Shown here: piece after piece, positions 12,344 to 58,771 of the stretch
How the letters are laid out: each line of letters begins with the position of its first letter
Numbering within the stretch: the stretch's first letter is position 1
DNA from: a virus
IMG/VR virus record: IMGVR_UViG_3300047319_000798
Span: 1 to 64,000 of that record
Reading direction: 5' to 3' (one strand)
DNA length: 64,000 bases
The notes under the pieces: generated by a model
What the model was told of the DNA's origin: nothing
Database searches by the model: none
Seen by the model: the letters and a program-made list of their open reading frames with translations, nothing else
Program-made: the position numbers and the translations under genes

Positions 12344-12923
12344 AAAGGGCAAAGAGATCAAGAGTTCCATGACGGAACAGTACGGTCCCGAGAAGGGCGA
12401 GGAGGTCTTTTACGCCTCCAAGAACGCAGGAAGGATCAGTGGCGTGGACACGAAAGCCGATCAGCAAGCCCAACCCCAGGCTGCTCAGCCGAAGCCCCAG
12501 CCGCAAGCGGCCCAGCCTCAAGCACAGGGACAGGGGCAGCAGCAAGCCCAGCAGCCGCCGGTTAAGGAGACCAAGACCACGGTTAAGGAACCGGCGGGCG
12601 GCGCAGAGGGTGAGCAGAAGCAAGACCCCAAGGCCACGCTCAAGGCGGCTGAGGATGAACTGGACGCACTGGAGCGCGAGCAGGAGCAATCGGAAGAGGG
12701 CCTGGGTCGCCAGAACGCGATTGAGGACCAGAAGAAGATCATCCGCACGCTGCGCAATGAGATGCGTGAGACTGAGCACAAGGAGCGTATGGGCGTTGCT
12801 GATGCCGTAGAGAAGTTGGAGTATCTTCAAGACAGCACACTGCTCATGAAGCACATCGGCGACGCCTGTGACAAGCTGGCTGACCGGATGGATGCATTTC
12901 AGGCGAAATCAGCGCGGGCCTAA
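12330..12923 (+). CDS. Virion protein with YGxxKGxxVFYAS domain and coiled coil
   Basis: The first 40 residues (LTEKGKEIKSSMTEQYGPEK, then VFYASKNAGRISGV) form a short domain seen at the N-terminus of many phage structural and internal proteins. A Gln/Ala/Pro-rich low-complexity linker (about 45-80) follows, then a charged coiled coil to the end (197 aa). It overlaps the holin and touches the Nudix-topoisomerase gene. It is probably an internal or scaffold-related virion component. Confidence 0.6.
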   Translation: MPLTEKGKEIKSSMTEQYGPEKGEEVFYASKNAGRISGVDTKADQQAQPQAAQPKPQPQAAQPQAQGQGQQQAQQPPVKETKTTVKEPAGGAEGEQKQDPKATLKAAEDELDALEREQEQSEEGLGRQNAIEDQKKIIRTLRNEMRETEHKERMGVADAVEKLEYLQDSTLLMKHIGDACDKLADRMDAFQAKSARA

Positions 12924-14134
12924 TGCTCAACGCTGCTGGGATCATCTTTCGCTCACCCCAGGGCCGCGTTCTATTGATGCGGCGCAAGGATGGGAAGTGG
13001 GACTACCCGGGCGGCGGCGCGGAGGGCGATGAGACGGCGGTTCAAACCGCCTTGCGTGAGGCGGTTGAGGAGACCAAATACTATCCCGGGCACGCGGGCC
13101 GGTTTCACGCGCGCCGGGTGCGCAATGGGGTCGATTACACGACCTTCCTTCGCGATTGTGAGGAAGAGTTCGTACCCAAGCTCAGCAATGAGCATACGGA
13201 TTACATTTGGATTGATCCTAAGCGGGTACTGACCCAAAGCATTAACGCCCGGGCCGACGATGCTGCGTGGGAGGAAAGCGATCACCCGCGCGATGAGGAC
13301 GGGAAGTTTGCGGGTGGTGGCGGTCATGTCTCCGCGACCCGGGGCGAGGGCGGCAAGCTAGAGGGCGCACCTGAGCATATCGCCAGCCTAAAGGTGCCGC
13401 CCGCATGGACCGATGTAACCTATGCTCAAGACCCGGGGGCTGCGCTCCTAGTCACCGGACGTGATTCTAAGGGGCGGCGGGTGTTCATCTATTCGGAGAT
13501 GCACGCCCAGAAGCAAGCGGCGCTCAAGTTCGCACGGATCAATGAGCTGGATCAACAGTTCAAAACGGTGGCGAAGCAGAACGCGGCGCTAGCCAAGACC
13601 GCCGGAAAGCGGGACGTGGCCGACTGTCTGGGGCTGATCATGGCGATGGGCATTCGGCCCGGCAGTGATCGCGATACCAAGGCGGCTAAGAAGGCTTACG
13701 GCGCGACAACGCTAGAGGGCCAACACGTAGTCACCGAGGGTGATACAACCTATCTGCGCTACACAGGTAAAAAGGGCGTGGACCTAAACCTGCCAGTACC
13801 CAAAGCGTGGGTTAAGGCACTACAGGAGCGGGCGGATAAGGCGGGGCCAAGCGGGCGATTGTTTGGTGGGGTGACCGATGCGATGTTGCGTGAGCACGTC
13901 CATAGTCTCGATGGTGGCGGGTTCACAACCAAAGATTTCCGCACCCATCTGGGTACGTCAACAGCCACCGAGCTGGTGGAGAGGATGGACGTACCCAAGA
14001 CCCAGGCGGAATATCGCAAGGCGGTTATGGAAGTGGCTAAGAAGGTGTCTTCTGTGCTAGGCAATACACCGGTGATTGCCCTCCAGAGCTACATCAATCC
14101 TAGTGTATTCGGGGCCTGGAAAGCTGCCGCATGA
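12923..14134 (+). CDS. Nudix hydrolase - topoisomerase IB fusion
   Basis: One 403-aa frame joins two enzymes. Residues 1-105 are a Nudix domain with box GGAEGDE...REAVEE (Glu37, Arg45, Glu46, Glu49, Glu50); the usual Gly after EE is Thr51. Residues 115-135 are a HPRDEDGKFAGG linker. Residues 155-403 match poxvirus-type topoisomerase IB: VPPAWTDV, VTGRDSKGRR, IRPGS (Arg245), TGKKG (Lys283/284), KDFRTHLGT (Arg340), VLGNTP, then catalytic Tyr390 in SYINP. It would nick and religate DNA through a 3'-phosphotyrosine and relax supercoils. Encoded among head genes, it may be packaged. Such a fusion is unfamiliar to me. Confidence 0.85.
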   Translation: MLNAAGIIFRSPQGRVLLMRRKDGKWDYPGGGAEGDETAVQTALREAVEETKYYPGHAGRFHARRVRNGVDYTTFLRDCEEEFVPKLSNEHTDYIWIDPKRVLTQSINARADDAAWEESDHPRDEDGKFAGGGGHVSATRGEGGKLEGAPEHIASLKVPPAWTDVTYAQDPGAALLVTGRDSKGRRVFIYSEMHAQKQAALKFARINELDQQFKTVAKQNAALAKTAGKRDVADCLGLIMAMGIRPGSDRDTKAAKKAYGATTLEGQHVVTEGDTTYLRYTGKKGVDLNLPVPKAWVKALQERADKAGPSGRLFGGVTDAMLREHVHSLDGGGFTTKDFRTHLGTSTATELVERMDVPKTQAEYRKAVMEVAKKVSSVLGNTPVIALQSYINPSVFGAWKAAA

Positions 14135-39515: not shown

Positions 39516-39802
39516 TGGCTATCAACCCAATCCGCTTCCTGCGTAGCATCATCTCGGGTGTCCGTCCGTCATCGGCAAAGCTCGACGGTGAGCCTTATGT
39601 GAACTTCGCAGATAACCAGCTCGGCGTCATGCTCGGTGGCACTCCGGTGGACATGCTAGGGGTCACGATCTTTTCCACCACCGCCTCTTATCCGGCGCGC
39701 GTGACCGTGGTCTATCAGGGCACACTCTATCAATCACTAGGCGCGGTGCCTCCGGGCGCGTGGAACGCGACGCAATGGACTAAGTACACGACAGCCGCAT
39801 GA
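39515..39802 (+). CDS. Small fibre-locus protein, carbohydrate-binding-like
   Basis: A 95-aa protein. Its C-terminal half (YPARVTVVYQGTLYQSLGAV, then PPGAWNATQWTKY) resembles the short aromatic carbohydrate-binding modules (V...Y.G..Y.S......P......W) found at ends of fibres and chitinases. It overlaps both neighbours. It may be a separate receptor-binding tip of the adjacent collagen-like fibre. Confidence 0.55.
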   Translation: MAINPIRFLRSIISGVRPSSAKLDGEPYVNFADNQLGVMLGGTPVDMLGVTIFSTTASYPARVTVVYQGTLYQSLGAVPPGAWNATQWTKYTTAA

Positions 39803-41538
39803 GCGTCATTCCATACGAATGTGCCGTTGGCGATGCGGTGCCGGTTACACTTCCGGTCGCATCAACAACTGCGATTGCGCCGACCGATGACTCGGTCGAC
39901 ACCAATGATGTTGTCATCAGCGGCACCGGAACTATCAACTCGCTCGGCGTCGGCCCAGCAGGTGTGCCGCTCACCAAGCGGGTGTGGTTTCAGCCGTTTG
40001 GCGGCTCGATCACCCTGGTTAACAGCGCCAGTCTGAACCTTCTGGGCAACGCCAATCATATAACAAGTAATCCAATCATTGCGGAATATTACTGGGACGG
40101 GATATCGCGGTGGATTGAGCGTAATTTTACGGACTCCACTGTTGGCCCGGGTCAGGGCGGCGGACCCGTGGGACCACAAGGGCCGCAAGGAATACCGGGA
40201 ACACCCGGAGCCACCGGCCCGCAAGGGGCAAAGGGCGATACCGGGGCGACGGGCCTAACCGGGCCGCAGGGGTCACAGGGAGTGCCCGGCTCAATTGGCC
40301 CTGTAGGCGCGACAGGCCCCGGCTATCAAGTCATCGGCTTTCCTGCCTCGCACGCTATCGGCATTGGGCCGACCACATTTGCTATCGGGACTGGCTTCGC
40401 CTACAGCTTAGGGTGTCGCGCCCGCGCCAGCGCAACAACGACCACGTGGATGGAGGGCGAGGTCACTTCGTATGTTGGCGGTGTATTGACCATCGCCATG
40501 GATAATATTAGCGGCAGCGGTACGTACAGCAGCTGGAATATTAACCTGGCGGGCGAGATAGGCGTTATCGGGCCAACGGGTCCGCAAGGCGTGGTTGGAC
40601 CCATTGGCCCGCAAGGCACTCAAGGTATCCAAGGCATTCAAGGTAATGTGGGGCCGGTGGGGCCGGTGGGGCCGGTGGGGCCGATTGGCCCCGGTATCGT
40701 GTTTAAGGGTTCAGTACCAACTTATGCCAGTCTGCCAACCACTGGTAACAATACCGGGGATATGTGGATTACTGCCGACACCGGCAGAGGCTACGTGTGG
40801 GAGAATGGGGCATGGGTTGACGCGGGGGAGATCCAAGGGCCGCAGGGTGTGCAGGGGCCGCAGGGTGTGCAGGGGGCGCAGGGTCTAACTGGGGCGACAG
40901 GGGCGCAGGGCTTGACCGGGCCATCGGGTCTGATAGCCGAAGCGCCGACAGACGGCCAGCTTTACACGCGGCGCGGCGTCGATGCGTCGTGGCAACCGGC
41001 ACCGGGCGTCTCGATTAGAGACACGCCTCCGACATCGGCCAAATCTGGTGACCTATGGTGGGATAGTGTTGGCGGTCAGCTCTACATTTATTTCATTGAT
41101 CCGAATACCTCGCAGTGGGTCACCGCCATAAACAACACCGGCGGGCAGGGTCCGCAAGGCACGCAGGGTATTCAGGGCATACAGGGCATACAGGGGCCGA
41201 CCGGCGCAACCGGGCCACAGGGTATTCAAGGCCCGCAAGGCATCATGGCCGAAGCGCCCACCGATGGTAATGCTTATTTTCGGGCCTCAAGCGGGTGGAC
41301 AAGCGGCGGCAAGATCAGCGGCCCTCTGACGCCGTCCGCGAATGGCACAATCAATCTCGGCTCAGCCGCGCTGCGCTGGGGTACGGTGTACACGTCTGAC
41401 TTGAGCCTCAACAATGGCATCGGCGACTGGACTATCGTGGAGGGTGAGGATGACCTGTTCCTCTACAACAATAAGAAGGGCAAGACCTACAAGTTCGCGC
41501 TGATTGAGGTCGATAACGCACCGCCAAAGAAGGTCTGA
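39799..41538 (+). CDS. Long fibre with several collagen-like segments
   Basis: The 579-aa protein has an N-terminal beta domain (residues 1-115), then Gly-X-Y blocks at about 118-175, 255-300, 350-382 and 452-486, with beta modules between them. The spacer modules recur in other fibres: DTPPTSAKSGDLWWDSVGGQ with LYIYFIDPNTSQWV, and APTDGQLYTRRGVDASW-like units. A closing segment (INLGSAALRWGTVYTSDLSL) looks like a fibre end domain. Repeats make the gene prone to recombination. Confidence 0.75.
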   Translation: MSVIPYECAVGDAVPVTLPVASTTAIAPTDDSVDTNDVVISGTGTINSLGVGPAGVPLTKRVWFQPFGGSITLVNSASLNLLGNANHITSNPIIAEYYWDGISRWIERNFTDSTVGPGQGGGPVGPQGPQGIPGTPGATGPQGAKGDTGATGLTGPQGSQGVPGSIGPVGATGPGYQVIGFPASHAIGIGPTTFAIGTGFAYSLGCRARASATTTTWMEGEVTSYVGGVLTIAMDNISGSGTYSSWNINLAGEIGVIGPTGPQGVVGPIGPQGTQGIQGIQGNVGPVGPVGPVGPIGPGIVFKGSVPTYASLPTTGNNTGDMWITADTGRGYVWENGAWVDAGEIQGPQGVQGPQGVQGAQGLTGATGAQGLTGPSGLIAEAPTDGQLYTRRGVDASWQPAPGVSIRDTPPTSAKSGDLWWDSVGGQLYIYFIDPNTSQWVTAINNTGGQGPQGTQGIQGIQGIQGPTGATGPQGIQGPQGIMAEAPTDGNAYFRASSGWTSGGKISGPLTPSANGTINLGSAALRWGTVYTSDLSLNNGIGDWTIVEGEDDLFLYNNKKGKTYKFALIEVDNAPPKKV

Positions 41539-41540
41539 CC

Positions 41541-42086
41541 ATGGGCATCGACATCGGCGGTGCAACCATCATCCAATCGGGCGGCGGCGCTGTGCTCAAT
41601 ACCGCGCTGGCCTTCAACTCGCTCGGCCAGGGGGCCGCGAACCCTTACTGCGGCTACTCAGGTTGGAAGACCGGCGGCTCGACTTACTACTCGGGTGGTT
41701 CGGGTTGGGAGATCAACGCCGTCACCTGGAACTCGGGTCTGACTCTTGGGAATGGTGTCTTCACCTGTCCGGTCGCGGGCCTCTACGCTATGGGCTACAA
41801 CGGCATCCACCGGGGCGGCTCCGGCATCCCGGCGGGCTACAATACCTATGGCTATTGCGGCTTCGCCAAGAACGGCGCGCTGTCCTACTTCGCGCATTGG
41901 AATCAAGGCACCAATACCTACTGGAACACGGGAGGCGTCTCGGCGCTATTTCAATGTGCGGCCGGAGACTGGCTGGCGCTGTTCATCAATCAGTCTCCCG
42001 TTAGTAATGGGCCAGATGTCTATTCGCAGAATTATGGGCTGTACCCGGATCAGCACCATTGCGTCTGGTGTAAGCTGGTGGGTTGA
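41541..42086 (+). CDS. C1q-like fibre-tip protein 1
   Basis: A 181-aa protein with a C1q/TNF-like jelly-roll signature: NGVFTCPVAGLYAMGYNGIH, a YGFAKNG-like strand, LSYFAHWN, then a CAAGDWLALFIN segment and a final WCKLVG strand. First of three tandem relatives, sharing FTCPVAGxY and a shared HWN/YRD position. Such trimeric heads bind ligands at fibre tips. No attachment domain is present, so it may be added to a fibre encoded nearby. Confidence 0.65.
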   Translation: MGIDIGGATIIQSGGGAVLNTALAFNSLGQGAANPYCGYSGWKTGGSTYYSGGSGWEINAVTWNSGLTLGNGVFTCPVAGLYAMGYNGIHRGGSGIPAGYNTYGYCGFAKNGALSYFAHWNQGTNTYWNTGGVSALFQCAAGDWLALFINQSPVSNGPDVYSQNYGLYPDQHHCVWCKLVG

Positions 42087-42089
42087 CCG

Positions 42090-42596
42090 ATGGGCTTCGA
42101 TGTCGGCGGCATAGCGTTTACCGCATCCGGCGGTGTTCTGGCGGTGGATGGCGCGTCCACCTTTATGCGGGTGACGGCTAGCGGTATCCTGACGCGACCA
42201 CAGACGCCTTGGATGCGCGGCCAGTTCAACGGTCAGGGCAATCCCTACAACGGCAACGGCGGGCCATTGCTAATCCCCGCTGACGACAATGTTGGCGGTT
42301 GCTGGAACAGCGCCACTGGTTATTGGACCTGTCCGGTGGCGGGATATTACATGGTGACCGGCGCGGGCATCGCTGCCACGCAAGCCGGTTATCTCTACAT
42401 CAACAAGAACGGGGCCACCGTGCATTACACGCACTGGAATCACACAGCCGCCTGGCACTATACGTCGATTTCCGATATCGTATTATGCGCGGCGGGAGAC
42501 AATATCAGCTACACCATAGGAGGGCTCACGCCAGCCACCACCGGCTTTTATGGCGGCGGCGGCCATGGCATGTACTCGATAGCGTTGATGGCCTGA
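42090..42596 (+). CDS. C1q-like fibre-tip protein 2
   Basis: A 168-aa relative of the genes on both sides: TGYWTCPVAGYYMVTGAGIA, LYINKNGATVHYTHWN, IVLCAAGDNISYTIGG, and a terminal MYSIALMA strand. The N-terminal 60 residues differ from the neighbours while the core strands are kept, suggesting divergence of binding surfaces after duplication. Confidence 0.65.
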   Translation: MGFDVGGIAFTASGGVLAVDGASTFMRVTASGILTRPQTPWMRGQFNGQGNPYNGNGGPLLIPADDNVGGCWNSATGYWTCPVAGYYMVTGAGIAATQAGYLYINKNGATVHYTHWNHTAAWHYTSISDIVLCAAGDNISYTIGGLTPATTGFYGGGGHGMYSIALMA

Positions 42597-42597
42597 C

Positions 42598-43107
42598 ATG
42601 CCGATAGACATTAACGGCTACGCGCTGGCGAACTCTTCCGGCCTCAAGTTCGGCGCGTCCAATACCAAGATCGTTGCCGCGAACTACGGCATCAGCGACC
42701 CAATGCTGCCCGGGATGTTGGGCTCGGTAACGGACGGCAGTGGCGCTTACAAGTGCTATCCGTTTCCGCTCAACGACGTGAACCTTAATAACGGGTCGCC
42801 ATGGTCATCCTACAGGTTCACCTGTCCGGTCGCTGGCATCTACTACATCTCGTATGCCGGCATCGTCGGCACCGGGGTTTCGATGGGTGGCTATTTCGGC
42901 ATCATCGTTAACGGCGCTCTTTGGTATTTCTCGTATCGCGACAGCAACGCTCCGTGGGAGCTTCATCATATCGAGATGCAGCTCAAGCTGTCCGCCGGGG
43001 ATTACATCGAGTGGGCGATGAACATCGCGCCCGGGCCGGACTCCAGCACGGCGGGCGGCGCGTATCGGGCCAACCACAATCACTGTACCATCTGGCTGAT
43101 CGGGTAG
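42598..43107 (+). CDS. C1q-like fibre-tip protein 3
   Basis: A 169-aa third relative: YRFTCPVAGIYYISYAGIVG, FGIIVNGALWYFSYRD, MQLKLSAGDYIEWAMNIAPG, ending in HCTIWLIG. It overlaps nothing but lies two bases after the previous stop. The spacing, length and core motifs show that all three arose by tandem duplication. Confidence 0.65.
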   Translation: MPIDINGYALANSSGLKFGASNTKIVAANYGISDPMLPGMLGSVTDGSGAYKCYPFPLNDVNLNNGSPWSSYRFTCPVAGIYYISYAGIVGTGVSMGGYFGIIVNGALWYFSYRDSNAPWELHHIEMQLKLSAGDYIEWAMNIAPGPDSSTAGGAYRANHNHCTIWLIG

Positions 43108-43116
43108 GAAAAACAC

Positions 43117-43380
43117 ATGGCGGTCTATACGATCACGTTGACAGACGTTGAACAGAGGGCGATGGAATATGTCGCTACCGATGTCAACTTTTGGATCCAG
43201 AACGCGGTGCATGAGCGGGCGCGGCTAGCTATGGAGGAGCTTGTAGCCAACCACATCGCTGCGAAGCTTGCTGCTGGCGCGACGATTTCCGGCACCAAGG
43301 AAGAGATTGTGATGAAGTCTGATCTGCCCAATGCCCAAGCGAGAAGCGATGCTGTTGCTAGGATGGCTGTGCTTCCGTGA
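43117..43380 (+). CDS. Small helical protein of a phage family
   Basis: The 87-aa product reads TYTITLT-like at the start ([20 protein letters not shown]), then a helical [20 protein letters not shown] block. I have the impression of a recurrent small protein in fibre regions of rhizobial and related phages, without known function. It could be a fibre chaperone. Its stop overlaps the next fibre start. Confidence 0.6.
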
Positions 43381-44762
43381 TTGACTTTCCGGCCAATCCC
43401 ACACCGGGTCAGATATTCGTTAGCCAAGGCATCACGTGGCGCTGGGACGGCACCAAATGGGCAATGGCGGGTTCCACCCCAATCAACTTTGGGGATACAC
43501 CGCCACCTAATCCCGTCGCTGGGACGCTCTGGTGGGACACGGTCAGCGCCAACCTGTTCATCTGGTATAATGACGGTAACACCGCCCAATGGGTGACCAG
43601 TAACAATGTCGGCGGGGCCGGACCGCAGGGGATACAGGGCATACAGGGGATACAGGGCGTCACCGGGCCGATAGGACCGCAAGGTGTAATCGGGCCGCAG
43701 GGGCCGATAGGGCTGACCGGGCCGCAGGGTAATCAGGGTGACCCGGGGCCGACAGGAGCTACAGGGCCGGTTGCCCCGAGCGCGATTGGCGACAACAGAA
43801 TTATCAACGGAGACATGCGGGTCGATCAACGCAATGGCACAGGAAGGAACTATCAGGCCTCGTGCTATGTCGTTGACCGATGGTGGTTTCAGGCCTCAAC
43901 AGCCGCGTTGATGCAGTTCAACGGAGTGGTTGCCGGGCCAGCCGGGTTTCCCAATGCCCTTCAGTTTCAATCGCTGTCGGCGCATACGATTGTTGCTGCC
44001 GATCAGTTTAGCGTCTCCACTTATCTGGAAGGCGACTCGATCAGCGATTTCAATTTTGGCGTAGCGGCGGCGGCGACGGTCACGTTGTCGTTCTGGGCGC
44101 GGTCAAGCAAGACCGGCAGCTTTAGCGGCGCGCTTGTTAATAATGGCTCGACCCGATCCTACCCGTTCTCGTTCTCCCTGCCGACAGCGAACACCTGGAC
44201 GGCAATCTCAGTCACCATCGTCGGCGACAAGGCTGGCACTTGGACGATGAGTGGTAATAGTTGGCAGCTTGCCGTTGTCTTCGATCTTGGATGCGGCACC
44301 ACCTATCGCGCGGCGGCTGCCGCATGGCGCGCGGGTAATTACGCTGGCGTCACCGGCGCGCAGACCCTCACCAATACGCTCAACGCGACCTTCAGCGTCA
44401 CTGGGGTCAAGCTGGAGATGGGTTCAACCGCCACCACGTTCAACCGCTATTCGATGGCGAAGTGCCTGGCCGACTGTCAACGGTATTACACGAAGATGGG
44501 CGGCGACGCCAGTTGGGCCATTCTTATTCAAGGGTACGTTGACGCAAACAACCAACATTCAAGCACAGTCACGTTGCCGGTCACAATGCGCGCGCCGCCG
44601 GTTTTGACCCAATACGGATGTAACATCGGCAGCAACACCGTGGGGTTTTATCTCGGTACGACATCGTTCGGGGTGCAGCTGATCGCCAGCCCATCGAGCT
44701 TTGCCGGAACTGGAACCTTCGGCACCAGCGGCGGCTTCATCACGCTCGACGCGGAATATTGA
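43377..44762 (+). CDS. Fibre with collagen-like stem and jelly-roll head
   Basis: A 461-aa protein. The start ([27 protein letters not shown]) is the shared attachment motif; the [20 protein letters not shown] module follows, then Gly-X-Y repeats (about 81-138) and a large C-terminal jelly-roll type head beginning [15 protein letters not shown], a start seen in carbohydrate-binding phage fibre domains. The head probably contacts surface polysaccharide. Confidence 0.75.
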
Positions 44763-45649
44763 TGATCGACTTCCCGGCCAACCCAACCCTCAGCCAGGTG
44801 TTCACCGTCGCGGGTAACTCGTGGATGTGGGACGGCGTCAAGTGGGTGGCGATTGGCCCGGGGCCTTTCCTGCCGCTAGCGGGCGGCACTATGGCTCCGG
44901 GGTCGCACCTGATCCTGGCCGCTGATCCGGTTCAGCCGCTAGAGGCGACAACCAAGCAATACACCGACACACAGGCCCTGCGGGATAGCCTGCCGGTTGG
45001 TGGCGTCATTATCTGGGTCGCAGACAGTACTTTTGGCGGCTCGGCTAGTGCGCCGCCGTGGAACTACGTTGTGTGCAACGGGGCCTATTACGCCGCCACC
45101 GACATGCCGTTGTTGTTCAACGTGCTACAAGGCGCGTATGGATGGGACGGCACTAACTTCGCCGTGCCCAATCTGCTCGACCAAGCCGTGGTCGGCGCTG
45201 GCGGTTCCTGGGGCATTAACGCGAAGCTCGGCGAGTACAATCACACCACGACCGCGAATGAGATGCCGGCGCACGCCCATAGCATCGCGGACCCGACGCA
45301 CGCTCACAGCCTCTATGATCCTGCCCACACGCACGGCATTGGCGACCCGGGTCACAACCATGGGTTCCCCGACCCCGGCCACATTCATGGCAACGTCATG
45401 CAGGCGGCCACCGGCTATTATTCGCTGGCCGCCACGGGCGCTCTGCATACGGCGGGTCAGACTGACTTGCGCGGCACCGGGCGAACCATTCAAGCCGCTG
45501 GCGTCGGTGTCTGGACTGGCGCTGCTGGCACCAGCATGGGGGTCTATGGCGCGGGGACAGGGATTGGGATTTATAACGCGGGCGGCGGGGCGGCGCATAA
45601 CAATATACAACCCTCCACAGCTATGTACTACATCATAAGGTACGCATGA
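44762..45649 (+). CDS. Second collar-type fibre with His-rich tip
   Basis: ATG 44762 overlaps the previous stop. The 295-aa protein is a relative of the fibre at 38487: [13 protein letters not shown] and WMWDGVKWV at the start, PLAGGTMAPGSHLILAADPV, a collar segment (VGGVIIWVADSTFGGS, VPNLLDQAVVGAGG), a long HAH/HTHG/HNHG/HIHG strip (about 175-215) and terminal MYYIIRYA. Two such tips in one locus suggest alternative or paired receptor-binding proteins. Confidence 0.8.
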   Translation: MIDFPANPTLSQVFTVAGNSWMWDGVKWVAIGPGPFLPLAGGTMAPGSHLILAADPVQPLEATTKQYTDTQALRDSLPVGGVIIWVADSTFGGSASAPPWNYVVCNGAYYAATDMPLLFNVLQGAYGWDGTNFAVPNLLDQAVVGAGGSWGINAKLGEYNHTTTANEMPAHAHSIADPTHAHSLYDPAHTHGIGDPGHNHGFPDPGHIHGNVMQAATGYYSLAATGALHTAGQTDLRGTGRTIQAAGVGVWTGAAGTSMGVYGAGTGIGIYNAGGGAAHNNIQPSTAMYYIIRYA

Positions 45650-46245: not shown

Positions 46246-46488
46246 CTACAGCCGCCCGCTCAGGACATCCTTGATCATCTTGTACAGCCCCACCCCGACA
46301 AAAATTGTGCCGGGCCATGACAAGATGGCATACCCGGCATCCAAGTGGAGAACATGGCGGGAGAACACCGCCATGATCAGAGCGGCTAGGCCGATTACGA
46401 TGTAGTCAATCGTGCCCCACGACCGGAACGGCCCCGATAGAGCGCGCCAAGCGCCATCAAGCCAAAGCCGGAAAGGAGCATGACCCAC
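46246..46488 (-). CDS. Small membrane protein (two transmembrane segments)
   Basis: The start is GTG 46488 with GGAGG seven bases upstream, a strong choice even though it overlaps the sorting-tail gene by 94 bases. The 80-aa product has an amphipathic N-terminus and two hydrophobic helices (IDYIVIGLAALIMAVF, about 27-42, and ILSWPGTIFVGVGLYKMI, about 55-72). It is last in the operon of secreted proteins and could serve as a holin-like or exclusion protein. No family recognised. Confidence 0.65.
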   Translation of the reverse strand: MGHAPFRLWLDGAWRALSGPFRSWGTIDYIVIGLAALIMAVFSRHVLHLDAGYAILSWPGTIFVGVGLYKMIKDVLSGRL

Positions 46489-47219
46489 GTTGAAGCCTCC
46501 GGCACTGGCGGTCCCGATAGTGTGTTGATAATGCCGGCGTTAGTCCACGAGGTATCAAACGCCGTGATATTGAGGTTGCCCTGGTGGTCGAACGACAGGT
46601 CCACCGCAACCGGGGCGATGATGGTTCCCAGTGCGAACGAGCCATTCACAGTGAGGAAGTCGGCGTCACTGTTGAAGCCACCTCCCGGCACGTTGAACGA
46701 CGCCTCCTCAATCTGGAACGCATTGGGTAAGGCAAATCCTTCCTTCGTGTATTCAGCGAGGAAGTTGGTGAAGCTCAAGCTGCCGCCGCCGATACCCAGC
46801 TGCTTGCCAAAGTCCTGACCGGCGATGAGCGTGCCGAGCAGCGCGCCGTCGAATAGACCATTGTTCAGATCAAGCACACGCGGCGCAATGTCCACCGATG
46901 TCGGACCGATGGTGAACGCCCCAAGCGGACCAACGCCAGTCGCTCCGCTGATGGTTGGTAAGGCCGTGCCCAGCGCCGAGATGAAGTAAACCCGGATAGG
47001 GTCATTGATGCTCTTGTTGCCAACCTCTGTGATGGTGAAGGTGTTGGCGTCGTTGAGCAGCACTGGATCGGAGCCGGTCGCGCCGGGTGACGTGACGTGG
47101 AGTGACGTTGGATCGCAGAACGTACCACCGCCCGGAAGCGGGGTGCAGTCTGTAGCCTGGGCGTAAGCCGGTGCGGCGAAGGCGAAAGCCATCACCGTAG
47201 AGAGTAAGAACTTTTTCAT
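46395..47219 (-). CDS. Secreted protein with degenerate PEPxxWA-CTERM sorting tail
   Basis: A 274-aa protein. Residues 1-20 are a Sec signal peptide (MKKFLLSTVMAFAFAAPAYA). The mature part is a beta-rich Gly/Asn/Asp domain with two early cysteines. Residues 239-274 are the sorting tail: VPEASTWVMLLSGFGLMALG then a basic end. The motif has PEA and WV where PEP and WA are usual. In bacteria exosortase cleaves such tails and anchors or exports proteins with exopolysaccharide. A phage could use it to remodel the infected cell surface (inference). Confidence 0.75.
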   Translation of the reverse strand: MKKFLLSTVMAFAFAAPAYAQATDCTPLPGGGTFCDPTSLHVTSPGATGSDPVLLNDANTFTITEVGNKSINDPIRVYFISALGTALPTISGATGVGPLGAFTIGPTSVDIAPRVLDLNNGLFDGALLGTLIAGQDFGKQLGIGGGSLSFTNFLAEYTKEGFALPNAFQIEEASFNVPGGGFNSDADFLTVNGSFALGTIIAPVAVDLSFDHQGNLNITAFDTSWTNAGIINTLSGPPVPEASTWVMLLSGFGLMALGALYRGRSGRGARLTTS

Positions 47220-47239
47220 GTTGGGTATGATCCCCGGTT

Positions 47240-47265
47240 AGAGAGTGGGGGGCTATTCTCCCCCC
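47240..47265 (-). promoter_or_regulatory. Leader hairpin plus CCCCCACTCTCT box
   Basis: On the leftward strand GGGGGG (47265-47260) pairs with CCCCCC (47252-47247), then CCCCCACTCTCT (47251-47240) leads to the ATG at 47219. The same 12 bases after a hairpin precede the secreted protein gene at 50962. It may act as an intergenic attenuator or translation element. Confidence 0.45.
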
Positions 47266-47324
47266 TTGGGCCAGATGCTTGCCTTTCGCGCCATGCTCGC
47301 CCGCTTGCGCGGGTCCGCATTCCT

Positions 47325-48041
47325 TTACGCACCCAGGACCGACAGGCGGTCCTTACGCGAACGCTTCCAGCCCATCACGCCCATGAGCGCGAAGCCGCTG
47401 AGCAACATCGCCCAGGTCTTGGGCTCCGGCACCGCCGACGCCTCCATCGAGACGCCCTGGACAAAGATGCTGGCACCCGGCTGAAGGGTAAGGGTGAGGC
47501 TCTCCGCCAGCCCGTAGGGGCTGTTGAGAAGGTCGCTGCCGAACCCGTTGAACGCGAACGACTGCGGCCCGGTCAGCCCACCAGAGTTGAAATCTCCGAT
47601 GTCGAGGCCGGTGATGGCGAAGCCGGTCCCGTTAAGCGAATTGCTCGCGTCGGCGAAGAACGAGCCGGACAAGTCAGACCCGAACAGCGTGGCGCCCACA
47701 GCCGCCGTAAGGTTGAACCCAAACGAAGGCCCAAGGAAGCCGTTAGCCCCGGCGATGATGCGCAGCGTCTGCACCGTGCCAGTGGTGTTGTCGATGTTGA
47801 TGTTGCCCTCAGTCAAACCATTGGGGCTGGTCCCCCGGTTGACGAAGGACAGGGACACCGTCACGCCGTCGAAGTTCTGCGACGCGAGAGCCGATGTGCC
47901 GGTTCCACTGGCGGTTTCAAACCCGCCGGGGTCCGCCGCGTTCCACATGATGAGGGCCGTGTTGGCCGCCATCGCGGGGCTGGCCACCGCCAACGCCGCA
48001 AGTCCTACGGCACCAAGCGCCGCCGCCTTAAAAATCCCCAT
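47325..48041 (-). CDS. Secreted protein with canonical PEPxxWA-CTERM sorting tail
   Basis: ATG 48041 has GGAG eight bases upstream; a longer frame lacks this. The 238-aa product has a signal peptide ending near Ala25 (VASPAMA), a beta-rich domain (SFVNRGTSPNGLTEGNINID), and residues 204-238 VPEPKTWAMLLSGFALMGVM followed by KRSRKDR. This is a full PEPxxWA-type exosortase signal: PEP box, transmembrane helix, basic end. Exosortase itself is not encoded in the window, so host machinery would be needed. It is followed by the degenerate relative. Confidence 0.85.
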   Translation of the reverse strand: MGIFKAAALGAVGLAALAVASPAMAANTALIMWNAADPGGFETASGTGTSALASQNFDGVTVSLSFVNRGTSPNGLTEGNINIDNTTGTVQTLRIIAGANGFLGPSFGFNLTAAVGATLFGSDLSGSFFADASNSLNGTGFAITGLDIGDFNSGGLTGPQSFAFNGFGSDLLNSPYGLAESLTLTLQPGASIFVQGVSMEASAVPEPKTWAMLLSGFALMGVMGWKRSRKDRLSVLGA

Positions 48042-48151
48042 GTGTTTATCTCCATATGCCGGAAAAGGGTCCGGTCCCTGTAACAACTTCGCATGTTAAC
48101 GGAATTTAATCTTCGCGTCTAGGTAAATTATGAGGATACTGTAGAGGTTTT
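48042..48151. other. AT-rich spacer upstream of the sorting-tail genes
   Basis: These 110 bases are notably AT-rich for this genome and probably hold the leftward promoter of the 48041-46246 operon, but I found no copy of the phage promoter family in them. CTGTAAC occurs at 48079. No open frame with a start and ribosome binding site is visible. Confidence 0.4.
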
Positions 48152-48280
48152 TCAAAACAGTTTTGATACCATCCAGATAACGAAGCCCGCCAAGGCTCCG
48201 AAACAGAGCACCATGGTGAATGCCTCACGGCCCGGGTATTTCACCGGTGCCCAGTAGGGCTCATAGTCGTTATCATCCAT
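48152..48280 (-). CDS. Very small single-span membrane protein
   Basis: A 42-aa frame beginning at ATG 48280, GGAG seven bases upstream, overlapping the end of the gene before it by eight bases. MDDNDYEPYWAPVKYPGREA is followed by one hydrophobic helix, AFTMVLCFGALAGFVIWMV, and SKLF. The acidic-aromatic head and single helix suggest a membrane micro-protein. Function unknown. Confidence 0.6.
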   Translation of the reverse strand: MDDNDYEPYWAPVKYPGREAFTMVLCFGALAGFVIWMVSKLF

Positions 48281-48545
48281 CTTCCCTCTCCCCTAGTGTG
48301 ATCAGCTGATCCGCGATAGCGTAAGCTGTATCCGTGTCTCGGGTGGACCAGTCAGTCACGGGATTGCCGCCGCGCCGCTTAATCGCCAGCGCCACCGCCA
48401 GTACAGCGTCCCGCCGCGCCTCAGATCGCTTGAGCGCCGCTCTATGAGCCGCGTCCGCGATACCGTGATCCGCATCCCCTACAATCTCCTTGTCGCTGGG
48501 CGGTATCGCGCCCAGTATGCGCTTGAACGCGGGTTCGTCATCCAT
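48273..48545 (-). CDS. Hypothetical helical protein
   Basis: A 90-aa, Ala/Arg/Asp-rich, largely helical protein (HRAALKRSEARRDAVLAVAL), with a NPVTDWSTRDTDTAYAIADQ segment. It has its own promoter over the terminator upstream and is coupled to the small membrane protein downstream. No family recognised. Confidence 0.6.
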   Translation of the reverse strand: MDDEPAFKRILGAIPPSDKEIVGDADHGIADAAHRAALKRSEARRDAVLAVALAIKRRGGNPVTDWSTRDTDTAYAIADQLITLGEREDG

Positions 48546-48561
48546 TAGCTATCCTCAAACG

Positions 48562-48592
48562 AAAAAGGGCGGAGGCCCGATGCCTCCGCCCT
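48562..48592 (-). terminator. Rho-independent terminator
   Basis: On the leftward strand AGGGCGGAGGC (48592-48582) pairs perfectly with GCCTCCGCCCT (48576-48566) around ATCGG, followed by TTTTTCG. It ends the DUF6011-like transcript. The next promoter overlaps it. Confidence 0.85.
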
Positions 48593-51908: not shown

Positions 51909-54098
51909 TTATTTTTCACCCAGCTTCTCCTTGGCCTCTCCCCAGGAAGCCCCAAATTCAACATCGACCTTCATCGGGATCACCAGTGGGATGGCATCGA
52001 TCATCAGCTTGGCGCACTTGCGCGCTGATTCCGGGTTGTCGAAGGAGAAGCCCAGTTCATCGTGCATCTGGATCATGGGCAGGTAGCCAGCGCGCCCGAT
52101 ATCCCGCATAGCCCGCTTCATCTGGCGGGCGGCGCTACCCTGGATCAGGTGGTTGAATGCCTTGTAGGTAAACGAATGGCGCACTGGCTTCTGCCAGGGG
52201 TGATGGGGATCATCAATCCGCGCCTGGGCCTCCTCCCGGCTAGCTGCTGGCTTGAACGCATCCTCAAGATTGCCATACAGGCGCACGCCCTCTGCCTGGA
52301 ATGCGCGCTTGTATTCATCCTTGTCCTTCTTGTACCAGAATGAGCCTTCAAACCCCGGGTAGTGGGACCGCGCGCCGTCGATCAGCCGAATAGAGCCGCG
52401 CTCAGACGCCATCCAGATGATGATATTGGCTATCCCGGCGACAAAGGGCAGCCGCTCATCATAGGTGTTCATAGTGGCCTTGGCTTCCTCGTAATCCATC
52501 CCGGTCATTGCGGAGAACTGGCCGATACCCGCGCCGAATGCCTTGGCGAAGTTCACGTCCTTAGCGCGGCGGCGCTGGAGGCGGGTAATCTCCGCCACCC
52601 AACTGTGAAAGTCCACGTCCGGGTTGCGCCGGTATTCATCCCCGGTGGTGATGGCGGTCTTAACCAGCTCACGCAGTGAGACGTGCCGCCGCCCGGGCGG
52701 GATATGGGCGATGATTTCGGTGCGCAGCTTATCCAGCGCCGCGTCGGACAGAGTAGCCATGGTCTCCGCCACGTGGACGATGAGGCGAAATTCCTGCTGG
52801 CTATAATCCACCGCATACCATCGCGTACCCTCTTCCGGCAGGAAGATCGAACGGATACGCGGGGCCAGCTCATCGTCGCGGGACGGCATCTGCTGGAGCG
52901 GCGGGTGATCATAAGAGAACCGGTGGGACCGTGTACCGCCATCCTCATTGCGGAACTGGTTGATGGAGGCGTGGACCCGGCCATTGTATTCGGTGTTGAA
53001 GATATATTCGCCCACGAATTTGTCGCCGGCAGCGTCCAGTGTTCTAATGCGCTGGATCAGGCGCGGCAGCTCATGGCGATGGTTCTTCATCCATGGGCCT
53101 TCGAACTGGGGCTGGGCCTGACCGCGCGTCTCCCCTCCCGCCGTCCAGCCGTATTTGATCCCTACGCCGTCAAAGACCTTGGCCAGTGCCCAGGGTGAGC
53201 GGATGACCTTAATGTCCAGATGCATACCGGCGGAGCGGGCGGCAGCGTTGATTAATTCATCCCGCTGCGTGTTTAGATCGTGCTGGAGCCGCTCGGCAGC
53301 ATCCAGATCGACCCGAATGCCCCGGCGACGCATCCGCTGGGTCATCGGCATTAGCTCCATCTCCGTGGTGTAGGCGTCCCAGGAGCCTTCCGCCTCAACG
53401 AGGGGTCTAAGTATGTCGTAGAGTTCGAGTGTGGCTCCTGCGTCACGCTCCGCATACGGACCCACGTACTTCCCGGGCAGCCGCCAGAGGTTCTCCCCGG
53501 TTGACCCCTTCAAGCCCAGAACCTTGCAGGCTTCCACCAGCATTGATTCGTCCTTGCCCGGAATGCCCCGCCATTTACACAGGTCATCGAGCTTGTAGCT
53601 GGGAAGGCTTTCGATCAGGAACGCGGCCAGCGCGCCGGTGTCGTTAATCCGTGCCGGTGGGGGTATCTCCCATTGGGCGAATATCCAGCCCAGATCGTAG
53701 CCGATGTTGTGGCCGACAAACTCTGTGTGGTCCTGGCGGAATAGGGCGCGCAACCACGTGCCTACGGTTTCATAGGGCCAGTTCGCGGTCTCCCTCAGAT
53801 GCCACAATGGTATGTAGATCGAACCGCCGTGCCAGGCCACCGACACCCCTAGCACATAGTTGGTGGTGGAGGTTCCCATGAACCAGCCGGGGCCGCGCTT
53901 CTTGGTCTTGTCCAACAGACCATCGTCGCGCGTCTCGGTGTCTATCGCCACCACCTTAGCCTGGCTAAGGTCCGGCAGGTCGCTCGGCTCTAGCCAGTTT
54001 GATTCAGGCATAAATAGGTCTGACTGCTCGAAGCTGCGCTTGAGCTTCTTGTACTTCATCCTGATTCGTTCGGATTCAGGCGGAAGGCGGTAGAACAT
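51909..54098 (-). CDS. DNA polymerase, family A
   Basis: A 729-aa replicative polymerase if started at ATG 54098 (GAGGACG just upstream; GTG/ATG choices up to 54119 are possible). The 3'-5' exonuclease shows AIDTET (Asp53, Glu55), GHNIGYDLGW and YAERDAG. Polymerase motifs: A, AVDYSQQEFRLI; B, RRRAKDVNFAKAFGAG; C, IQMHDELGFSF. In motif B the position of the E. coli Pol I stacking Tyr766 is Phe. No 5'-nuclease domain. It is last in the long leftward operon with the nucleotide genes. Confidence 0.93.
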   Translation of the reverse strand: MFYRLPPESERIRMKYKKLKRSFEQSDLFMPESNWLEPSDLPDLSQAKVVAIDTETRDDGLLDKTKKRGPGWFMGTSTTNYVLGVSVAWHGGSIYIPLWHLRETANWPYETVGTWLRALFRQDHTEFVGHNIGYDLGWIFAQWEIPPPARINDTGALAAFLIESLPSYKLDDLCKWRGIPGKDESMLVEACKVLGLKGSTGENLWRLPGKYVGPYAERDAGATLELYDILRPLVEAEGSWDAYTTEMELMPMTQRMRRRGIRVDLDAAERLQHDLNTQRDELINAAARSAGMHLDIKVIRSPWALAKVFDGVGIKYGWTAGGETRGQAQPQFEGPWMKNHRHELPRLIQRIRTLDAAGDKFVGEYIFNTEYNGRVHASINQFRNEDGGTRSHRFSYDHPPLQQMPSRDDELAPRIRSIFLPEEGTRWYAVDYSQQEFRLIVHVAETMATLSDAALDKLRTEIIAHIPPGRRHVSLRELVKTAITTGDEYRRNPDVDFHSWVAEITRLQRRRAKDVNFAKAFGAGIGQFSAMTGMDYEEAKATMNTYDERLPFVAGIANIIIWMASERGSIRLIDGARSHYPGFEGSFWYKKDKDEYKRAFQAEGVRLYGNLEDAFKPAASREEAQARIDDPHHPWQKPVRHSFTYKAFNHLIQGSAARQMKRAMRDIGRAGYLPMIQMHDELGFSFDNPESARKCAKLMIDAIPLVIPMKVDVEFGASWGEAKEKLGEK

Positions 54099-54387
54099 CG
54101 TCCTCGTCCTCGTCACCATCCTCTTTCATCACTGCATCTTCGCCTTTTATCGCGGTCATATACCCCGTTGTCCAGCCGGCAGCATATATTATGGCGGTTT
54201 CCTGATCACCAAAATTAGCCAAACTGTAGTAAAGGCCCCTTTTGGTAGCCAAAAGCACTTCCCAATTGTAAGGCCCGGTTACGTGCGGACCGTTGTCCTG
54301 GTAAACAAATACGCGGGGCCGTGGCGCGGATAGCTCCGGATCATGTTTACATACAGCCGCCGTGTCTGCCACCATCCATAAACTCAT
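54076..54387 (-). CDS. Hypothetical protein with acidic tail
   Basis: A 103-aa protein with a beta-rich core (RPRVFVYQDNGPHVTGPYNW, GLYYSLANFGDQETAIIYAA) and a very acidic end (EDGDEDEDD). It overlaps the polymerase start by 23 bases and the DUF3310-like gene by four. Possibly a polymerase partner by position; no family recognised. Confidence 0.6.
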   Translation of the reverse strand: MSLWMVADTAAVCKHDPELSAPRPRVFVYQDNGPHVTGPYNWEVLLATKRGLYYSLANFGDQETAIIYAAGWTTGYMTAIKGEDAVMKEDGDEDEDDVLPPSA

Positions 54388-57547: not shown

Positions 57548-57894
57548 ACGCTTATCCTCAACGTCCCTGCTGGGCCGTTATTGTCTGATTCGGCGTTGAT
57601 CAGATAACGCATGGGGGCGACCGGCCAAGGTGCCCGATCAGTAACTGGCCAGGATATCGGCCCTATGTCTGGCAAGCAGAACCGACCACCGGTGCCGCTG
57701 CCATAGGTGTAGCCTATCGCGGCAAACAGTTCCGGGTAATCCTTGACCCGAACCAGTGCGCCGTTGCAAATCAAGTGTTGGGGGCGGATTATCGGCGGCC
57801 ACGGAGCGCGCGGCATTAGCATGAGCGAGGGCAGCCGCACGATAGCGGGCGCAGCGATTAGACCGGCGAAGAAAGAACGTCTGTCGAGGGTCAT
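57544..57894 (-). CDS. Tail-collar-domain protein with Tat-like signal
   Basis: ATG 57894 (second Met) gives a 116-aa protein starting TLDRRSFFAGLIAAPAIVRL, a twin-Arg motif plus hydrophobic stretch like a Tat signal. The rest is a short tail-collar domain: PQHLICNGALVRVKDYPELF, AIGYTYGSG, GGRFCLPDIG. Collar domains usually sit in fibres; here one lies in a replication operon with an export-type signal. It may be exported rather than built into the tail. Start and export are inferred. Confidence 0.6.
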   Translation of the reverse strand: MTLDRRSFFAGLIAAPAIVRLPSLMLMPRAPWPPIIRPQHLICNGALVRVKDYPELFAAIGYTYGSGTGGRFCLPDIGPISWPVTDRAPWPVAPMRYLINAESDNNGPAGTLRISV

Positions 57895-58442
57895 AGGAAC
57901 CACGTGATCATCGAATAGCGTATGCCGGTGTTGACCGGTAGGATTTGATGGGGATACATGAACTGGGGCGGGAACATGAGCGCGCAGCCGCCGCGCAGCC
58001 GGAACGGTTCGTCATCCCAGAACTTGAATTCACCACCAGTGTATTCGTTGTTGAGAGCTATCGACATTGACAGCACCCGGGGCACCATATCGTCGCGGTG
58101 CTGGCCGATGAACTGGCCCGGTTCGTAGCGCAGAATATCGAAGCCGGAATCAGAGCGTGAGGTCAGCGGGAACTTGCCCCTGTAGATGTTGAGAGCACGC
58201 AGGGAGGCGTCGAGCAGGATATCGTCGGCCCGCTTGGCTATCCCGAGCTTAGCGGGCGTCAGAGGGTAGTTGCCCATTACTGCCGCTGAGAGAGGGAACG
58301 TGGTGCAGGTGCGCTCGGGGTAATCCGGCGACGCATTGGGCACGCGCCACTGCTCGCCCTCTGTGACGCTTAAAATTTCCTTACACGTCAGTGGGTCCAG
58401 AAGGGGCTCAGTGACCATGATGAATTCTTTGAGGTCCGCCAT
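57891..58442 (-). CDS. 2OG-Fe(II) oxygenase
   Basis: ATG 58442 has GGAG seven bases upstream; a Cys-rich longer frame does not. The 183-aa enzyme fits the prolyl-4-hydroxylase-like oxygenase fold: GQHRDD with iron ligands His115 and Asp117, EYTGGEFKFWDD, His165 in YPHQILPV, and Arg175 in GIRYSMITWF for 2-oxoglutarate. It oxidises an unknown target using oxygen and 2-oxoglutarate. In a DNA-modification operon the target could be a base or its side chain, but protein hydroxylation is equally possible. Confidence 0.85.
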   Translation of the reverse strand: MADLKEFIMVTEPLLDPLTCKEILSVTEGEQWRVPNASPDYPERTCTTFPLSAAVMGNYPLTPAKLGIAKRADDILLDASLRALNIYRGKFPLTSRSDSGFDILRYEPGQFIGQHRDDMVPRVLSMSIALNNEYTGGEFKFWDDEPFRLRGGCALMFPPQFMYPHQILPVNTGIRYSMITWFL

Positions 58443-58519
58443 CGCTGGTCTCCTATAGCAACACCCACAGCACTTTCTATCCGATTTGCAACACGGGAAG
58501 CGACAGGTGGCGAACGGAT

Positions 58520-58771
58520 TCACCGCTTGTTCCAATACGCTGCCAGGTCAGCAAGCTGGACTGGGGTGGGCCGCGCGATGGTGGTCTTGTCGCCCGCCCG
58601 CTCACTCTTGCGAATTTCTTCGCCAGCGCATTGCCAACACCAGATAGCGTCAGCGTGAGGGGAGCTAACCGCCACCCACACGTCCGCGCCGCATAGGTCG
58701 CAGAACCCGGGTTGCGACTGGACTGGCGGGCTGAGCACATCCTCGCAACGTAGACAGACTAGGGGGTTCAT
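58520..58771 (-). CDS. Small zinc-finger protein
   Basis: An 83-aa protein with three CxxC pairs: CLRC near residue 6, CDLC near residue 24 and CWQC near residue 45, enough for one or two zinc ions, then a helical tail ending YWNKR. The 77 bases between it and the oxygenase gene contain no gene. No family recognised. Confidence 0.6.
   Translation of the reverse strand: MNPLVCLRCEDVLSPPVQSQPGFCDLCGADVWVAVSSPHADAIWCWQCAGEEIRKSERAGDKTTIARPTPVQLADLAAYWNKR

Follow-up and report, generated by a model that had tools for sequence, protein, structure and literature searches.

Phages are known to deliver lipoproteins of their own to the host envelope. In the sections of PMC9586334 that describe it, one example, the Llp protein of phage T5, resides in the periplasm as a lipoprotein and blocks a protein receptor. 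The PEP-CTERM proteins of bacteria take another sorting route. According to the parts of PMC12188702 and PMC1569441 that deal with this route, they are exported by Sec, held by their tail and thought to be processed by exosortase; the former text adds that they help to hold exopolysaccharide (EPS) to the cell surface. The corresponding parts of PMC12642866 and PMC4886054 concern host genes. In the open-licence literature that we searched, no paper on phage-encoded exosortase substrates was found. The nearest report counts TIGR03118 proteins among the horizontally acquired genes of hot-spring viruses (n = 13; relevant part of PMC11003980).

Here, we describe two adjacent phage genes, A and B, that resemble genes for exosortase substrates. 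The likeness to the bacterial PEP-CTERM/exosortase (EpsH) system, as presented in the pertinent parts of Haft 2006 (PMC1569441), extends to the signal peptide, to a PEP motif with a helix and a basic cluster, to varied ectodomains and to a link with exopolysaccharide-producing soil bacteria. Conversely, the present locus is phage-encoded, lies in a record without exosortase and combines two tandem candidate client genes with small membrane proteins. Furthermore, the bacterial genes in that account are mostly single-gene operons positioned after a σ54-type site, whereas no near-consensus site of this type is listed in the phage cassette. Compared with Llp, the shared properties are small phage-made envelope proteins delivered by a host sorting pathway and, as a proposed benefit, a block on adsorption to infected cells and debris (PMC9586334, same sections). 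Unlike Llp, A and B show no lipobox and would use a different sorting route, and A is predicted to resemble glycan-binding proteins. The hot-spring viruses are alike in that proteins with a domain that putatively interacts with exosortase are encoded on virus contigs. However, in the gene-transfer count of PMC11003980, TIGR03118 is a name, and that part of the paper does not discuss a cassette, tail conservation or exosortase dependence.

Results

Two adjacent phage genes are built like genes for exosortase substrates

The window, that is the whole 64,000-nucleotide stretch of DNA that was analysed, corresponds to bases 1-64000 of a 77,970-base (78-kb) IMG/VR record. This record encodes a large terminase (TerL), a portal, a major head protein, a tail sheath, a baseplate and tail fibres, together with thymidylate synthase and a family-A DNA polymerase. 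Together, these genes identify a myovirus, and the phage is of a soil type. The polymerase (window 51909-54119) has DpoZ, an aminoadenine-incorporating enzyme, as its best NCBIfam match, at 237 bits against a cut-off of 500. Adjoining the head genes, at 12923-14134, is a gene with an N-terminal part that matches NUDIX hydrolase families and a portal-protein profile.

Gene A (47325..48041, minus strand) is an open reading frame (ORF) for a secreted protein of 238 aa, and starts with the ATG at 48041 behind GGAG. Residues 1-25, MGIFKAAALGAVGLAALAVASPAMA, were read by eye as a Sec-type signal peptide (47967..48041, minus). The remainder comprises a predicted β-sandwich (residues 28-201) and a C-terminal PEP-CTERM helix (residues 207-236). 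Pfam and NCBIfam profile searches place the PEP-CTERM tail, VPEPKTWAMLLSGFALMGVMGWKRSRKDRLSVLGA, at 47328..47432 (minus). Gene B (46395..47219, minus strand) encodes a secreted, β-rich protein of 274 aa with a PEA/WV variant of the tail, as assigned from the ORF, the match to PF07589, relatives and a structural model. Its Sec-type signal peptide (residues 1-20, MKKFLLSTVMAFAFAAPAYA; 47160..47219, minus) was likewise read by eye, and its tail, VPEASTWVMLLSGFGLMALGALYRGRSGRGARLTTS, was located at 46398..46505 (minus) by the same profile searches. Those searches found no enzymatic domain in A or B, and no lipobox was seen in either protein.

Both proteins exceed the Pfam PF07589 gathering score of 20.7 bits (A, 26.0; B, 24.8). 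A also passes NCBIfam TIGR02595 (16.9 bits, cut-off 16), for which B is not listed. For the narrower NCBIfam model NF035944 (PEPxxWA-CTERM), both scores, 31.8 for A and 22.1 for B, are below the cut-off of 35. At the near-invariant Pro-Glu-Pro, A reads PEP and B reads PEA. We defined a full tail as PE[PA]x[ST]W[AV]M near the ORF end with a hydrophobic stretch and basic residues. Only 2 of the 476 ORFs in the window (stop-to-stop, at least 60 aa) had such a tail, and these were exactly A and B. Neither 200 codon shuffles of the window nor 200 amino-acid shuffles of the 476 ORFs ever produced one. Hence, the tails are not a product of chance. The original prediction had placed two adjacent genes with signal peptides and sorting tails at this locus; both are present, on the minus strand, with tails that pass PF07589. 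These properties support the assignment of A and B as phage genes built like those for exosortase substrates.

The cassette is at the end of a leftward operon

The A/B pair is located at a convergent junction, where the end of the tail-fibre genes (plus strand) meets a leftward gene set (minus strand). The cassette closes the leftward operon, and the late genes are encoded on the other strand. A small membrane protein (46246..46488, minus) overlaps the 3' end of B; its true start is uncertain, and its hydrophobic part is held in 55 aa, from 46413 to 46246. Just upstream of A is a 42-aa one-helix protein that begins MDDNDYEPYWAPVKYPGREAFTM (48152..48280, minus). Further upstream is a 90-aa gene of unknown function (48273..48545, minus), with homologous ORFs in 8 other PEP-CTERM loci, some of which may be the same contig (neighbour clusters). 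A promoter-like site, TTGAAA-17-CATAAT (48127..48155, minus), lies directly before A; one was found and 1.5 are expected by chance. A terminator-like hairpin of 11 pairs, 9 of them G-C, is upstream of the group (48566..48592, minus), and is one of 4 in the region, where 3.7 are expected.

We considered σ54-type control, as for host PEP-CTERM genes. No near-consensus site (at most two mismatches) is listed within the cassette. The near-matches listed are outside it, and their number is below chance (23 versus 36), so this type of control was rejected.

A run of tail-fibre genes with collagen repeats and collar domains (window 39799-45649) adjoins the cassette. Two genes in this run open with a shared motif, IDFPANPT...W.WDG.KW. 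The leftward set also includes a 2OG-Fe(II) oxygenase gene (57891-58535).

Relatives of the phage were collected using the head protein; 212 IMG/VR stretches encode a related protein, and the best 80 of 212 were retained. PEP-CTERM matches over the cut-off occurred in 2 of 49 head-protein-sharing records (48 relatives and the window's record; many are fragments), namely the window's record and G058. At the same junction, three relatives of 75-79 kb (G062, G071 and G076) carry other genes. The rarity of PEP-CTERM genes in the genus, and the other genes at the junction, mark the cassette as cargo. On this comparison, the cassette in the window phage genus is accessory: a moron between the tail-fibre operon and the leftward operon. 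G058 has three PEP-CTERM genes (in its first 20,000 bases, L373), which are two adjacent A-like genes and one encoding 111 aa with almost no ectodomain.

A is predicted to adopt a jelly-roll fold

The model of A (pLDDT 88.1, pTM 0.76) has a 12-strand sandwich followed by one helix. The nearest solved fold is Bd1399 (Z 9.8, 143 aligned, 4.1 Å). Next are a Bacteroides surface glycan-binding protein (Z 9.0, 134 aligned, 3.5 Å) and CBM61 (Z 8.9, 118 aligned, 2.9 Å), then the phage K2-2 tailspike and CBM4-2; against CBM61, CBM4-2 and the surface glycan-binding protein, Z ranges from 8.2 to 9.0. Unmatched models often reach Z 7-8, so the values of 9-10 for A are modestly above this background and serve as a lead. 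Foldseek TM-scores for the glycan-binding matches are low (0.26-0.36), and no carbohydrate-binding module (CBM) family is listed for A in Pfam or NCBIfam. A is thus predicted to be a jelly-roll sandwich nearest to glycan-binding modules. For B, one model of five was good (pLDDT 78.7; the others, 57-66), and structure searches with it gave no significant fold match.

Related cassettes recur in uncultured viruses

It had been proposed that other phage genomes be searched for PEP-CTERM tails. Many uncultured viral records do carry related cassettes. A scan for codons specifying VPEPxTWAM identified at least 119 IMG/VR stretches, and 119 of 123 occurrences were no more than 45 residues from the ORF end; several of these pattern matches may lie in bacterial DNA that flanks a provirus in its record, and were not relied on. 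The viral loci contain 234 PEP-CTERM ORFs, of which 174 are distinct; they come from 203 loci, and some of these loci share a contig. These form 59 ectodomain clusters, including 40 singletons. The A superfamily (49 distinct) and the LQIEVFDNG family (27) are the largest. The large terminase phrog_2 was found in 18 of 50 PEP-CTERM virus records, and the others may use other terminase families.

In 14 viral records, including the window's, a second PEP-CTERM gene comes after A, or after an LQLSIS-type relative, in the same orientation. This gene is B or a member of one of three other families. The motif varies in two of these records; A of L127 reads PEL and B of L206 reads PEI. Since the 14 pairs were chosen by motif, a fairer count comes from the ten loci retrieved when the A ectodomain was the sole query. 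An intact partner was present in 7 of the 9 that could be assessed (L399 ends too soon). Of the others, L404 (the L136 contig) has the tail in another frame and L401 (the L131 contig) has none. At L136:6666-7700, on the contig shared with L090 and L404, the partner tail and ectodomain are in different frames, which indicates a broken gene or a sequence error.

Small membrane proteins usually accompany the cassette, and a two-helix type is found 3' of the partner gene in most cases. When aligned locally with the window's protein, 6 of 10 two-helix counterparts gave scores never matched by 300 shuffles and 4 were weaker; the best is from L204 (z 10.1). The one-helix type precedes A in the window, and in L204 and L129 it comes after B. 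These two counterparts align with the 42-aa protein at z 14.7 and 9.3 (0 of 300 shuffles).

Comparison of L002 with L003 revealed B proteins that are 98.5% identical and A proteins that are 86% identical, with synonymous differences of 0.084 for B and 0.544 for A. This is as expected if A and B are exchanged separately. The neighbours of the cassette also differ by phage, and include replication, packaging, tail-fibre or endolysin genes. Hence, the location does not imply the early expression that exclusion would need.

In many of the PEP-CTERM phages there are genes for small, apparently secreted proteins that contain a motif resembling HCYxRWxYPxxQHC. Examples are L006:13845-14165 (record 75844-76164), L129:5481-5807, L139:1658-1975 and L003:6795-7070. 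In L129, L139 and L003 the gene is directly upstream of A, and the L129 protein has no Pfam match.

The tail is retained when relatives are found by ectodomain

Tail conservation in the A4 set, and a separate result of 44 of 44 matches, are biased figures because most members were found through the tail. Unbiased tests therefore used ectodomain-only queries. With the A ectodomain, 10 of 10 relatives had a PEP-CTERM tail. The LQIEVFDNG ectodomain returned 64 loci (two on one contig), of which 57 had the tail, 6 were cut by the contig end and 1 had none; in uncut loci the tail was thus kept in 57 of 58. The exception, L461, lacks the PEP-CTERM motif, and a C-terminal hydrophobic and basic stretch remains. 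Relatives of B, found through ectodomain peptides, kept the tail in 5 of 5 cases, one reading PEI. Values of dN/dS were 0.10-0.31 in 10 pairs, consistent with purifying selection. Taken together, we consider it highly probable that these are genuine phage-borne exosortase substrates kept by selection.

The tail of B was originally described as degenerate. This label was rejected, because the variant recurs in phages and in chromosomal PEP-CTERM proteins. PEA, PES or PET together with WV is found in 11 of 57 tails of the phage LQIEVFDNG family, and PEA..WV tails also occur in exosortase-bearing bacteria. The 57 tails comprise 43 PEP..WA, 2 PEP..WV, 5 PEA..WV, 3 PES..WV, 3 PET..WV and 1 PEL..WA. 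Thus, within the LQIEVFDNG family, tails that lack the second proline mostly have V after W. The coupling is not general; 7 of 10 A relatives use PEP..WV, and partner proteins of L021 and L079 have PEA..WA. When 24 bacterial genomes were scanned for codons specifying PEAxTWVM, 4 had a single occurrence each and the control gave none. The two bacterial genes that we read both encode secreted-looking proteins ending in this sequence, and one is ~5 kb from an exosortase gene. Judged by its recurrence, the tail of B is a normal variant.

The ectodomain families are virus-centred and the records lack exosortase

We searched the genomes of 84,980 species for A and obtained 167 confirmed loci. Among the best 80 of these 167, nearly all matched the tail only (best E 7e-10); the longest weak bacterial matches in that set included L218 (27%, residues 2-238), L224 (25%, 54-235) and L210 (33%, 124-233). 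The A4 profile was dominated by tail matches, with few candidates scored per genome, so the search was repeated with ectodomains only. The A-ectodomain profile detected 2 of 385 alphaproteobacterial genomes, both partially and weakly (E 1e-4 and 2e-4), and 9 of 9 virus records known to hold the A form, including G049, which was outside the profile. The LQIEVFDNG ectodomain was detected in 0 of the 385 genomes, in a search run without a positive control in the same tool. For B, 5 of 248 Bradyrhizobium-family genomes had matches, all on the C-terminal side. L384 is a distant bacterial relative, in which a chromosomal PEP-CTERM gene is beside an ORF read by eye as a σ54-type regulator. Isolated phages gave no DNA match, and A, B and one LQIEVFDNG protein had no match in 50,697 GenBank phage records. 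In these searches, the ectodomain families centre on viruses, and their bacterial relatives are distant.

None of 50 PEP-CTERM virus records (the window's and 49 others) gave a match to exosortase (PF09721), and a phage-encoded enzyme was dismissed for these records. Conversely, PF09721 is present in 25 of 31 bacterial genomes whose tails resemble those of the phages. These bacteria are mostly Bradyrhizobium, other Hyphomicrobiales and sphingomonads, and tail similarity suggests a host of this kind.

Discussion

The best explanation of the locus as a whole, which we hold with moderate confidence, is that the phage encodes A and B as clients for the host exosortase. They would be made during infection and exported by Sec, as the signal peptides suggest. 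The tail, with its PEP-x-x-W motif, helix and basic cluster, would then retain them in the inner membrane until exosortase cuts. The host's own enzyme would be needed because the phage carries none. By analogy with bacterial PEP-CTERM proteins, the mature β-sandwich proteins may reach the outer surface or the EPS layer, where A might bind a surface glycan, and B and the small membrane proteins might conceivably be partners. The original prediction, that the phage displays exosortase-sorted proteins, stands in so far as these are phage genes built like genes for such substrates; its description of the B tail does not. Display of A and B through the host exosortase is probable.

The purpose of such display is less certain. 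Because the predicted fold of A is like that of glycan-binding proteins, covering or altering a surface glycan seems the likeliest action. Adsorption control may be its likeliest benefit, with EPS remodelling nearly as likely. If the glycan layer used for phage adsorption were covered or changed, the infected cell and its debris would no longer capture phage. We put this forward tentatively, as superinfection exclusion or adsorption control is somewhat short of an even prospect as the main role. The predicted fold of A fits superinfection exclusion, receptor masking and biofilm change alike, and picks none of them.

Remodelling of EPS or aggregation is possible but on the unlikely side. Here, the phage proteins would compete with host PEP-CTERM proteins for exosortase or exopolysaccharide and would thereby loosen or change the matrix, letting progeny escape or infected cells disperse. 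The role of bacterial PEP-CTERM proteins in holding EPS to the cell surface, as described in the relevant part of PMC12188702, is in keeping with this idea, as is the predicted likeness of A to carbohydrate-binding modules. Distinct ectodomain families that share one tail type would also be expected if reaching the EPS layer matters. Conversely, neither A nor B has any enzymatic domain found in our searches.

It is improbable that A and B are lysis-linked envelope proteins, expressed late for envelope breakdown or release, with small membrane proteins like holins or spanins. One- and two-helix proteins do flank the A/B pair, and the L204 cassette has a tail-fibre-like gene before it and a Peptidase_M15_3 gene after it. 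However, the neighbours are recombination-type genes in L003 and terminase-like ones in both L134 and L139, and in the window the cassette ends a leftward operon opposite in strand to the late genes.

Lysogenic conversion, in which the proteins would mainly benefit a lysogen through an altered surface or niche, is hardly probable either. A search of 41 records detected a tyrosine integrase in 8, and some carriers may thus be temperate, but none was detected in the window's record or in most others (several are fragments, and serine integrases were outside the search).

Finally, recent host gene fragments without infection function, or binned bacterial DNA, are very improbable and were rejected as the main reading: A has a GC content of 0.646 against 0.586 for 32 phage genes (z 2.3) and PEP-CTERM genes are rare among the head-protein relatives, but the composition of B is the phage's own, the cassette recurs in 14 records, dN/dS is 0.10-0.31, tails are retained in ectodomain-only searches, and the families are virus-centred, with no close ectodomain relative found in the bacteria sampled.

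Returning to A and B as clients of the host exosortase, such genes would be the first phage link to the PEP-CTERM system. They would offer a testable explanation for a possible dependence of some phages on exosortase, as well as compact natural substrates for the little-studied alphaproteobacterial enzyme. As three tested families have no match among the GenBank phage records searched, the phenomenon would be invisible to work with cultured phages. We lean slightly towards a general picture in which phages of EPS-producing soil bacteria have virus-centred exosortase clients of their own, in exchangeable cassettes that combine two PEP-CTERM genes with small membrane proteins, so that the infected cell would be coated with glycan-binding proteins by way of the EPS-linked host enzyme and exosortase would be a phage host factor. 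The recurring cassettes suggest that phages use a host surface-sorting enzyme to decorate infected cells.
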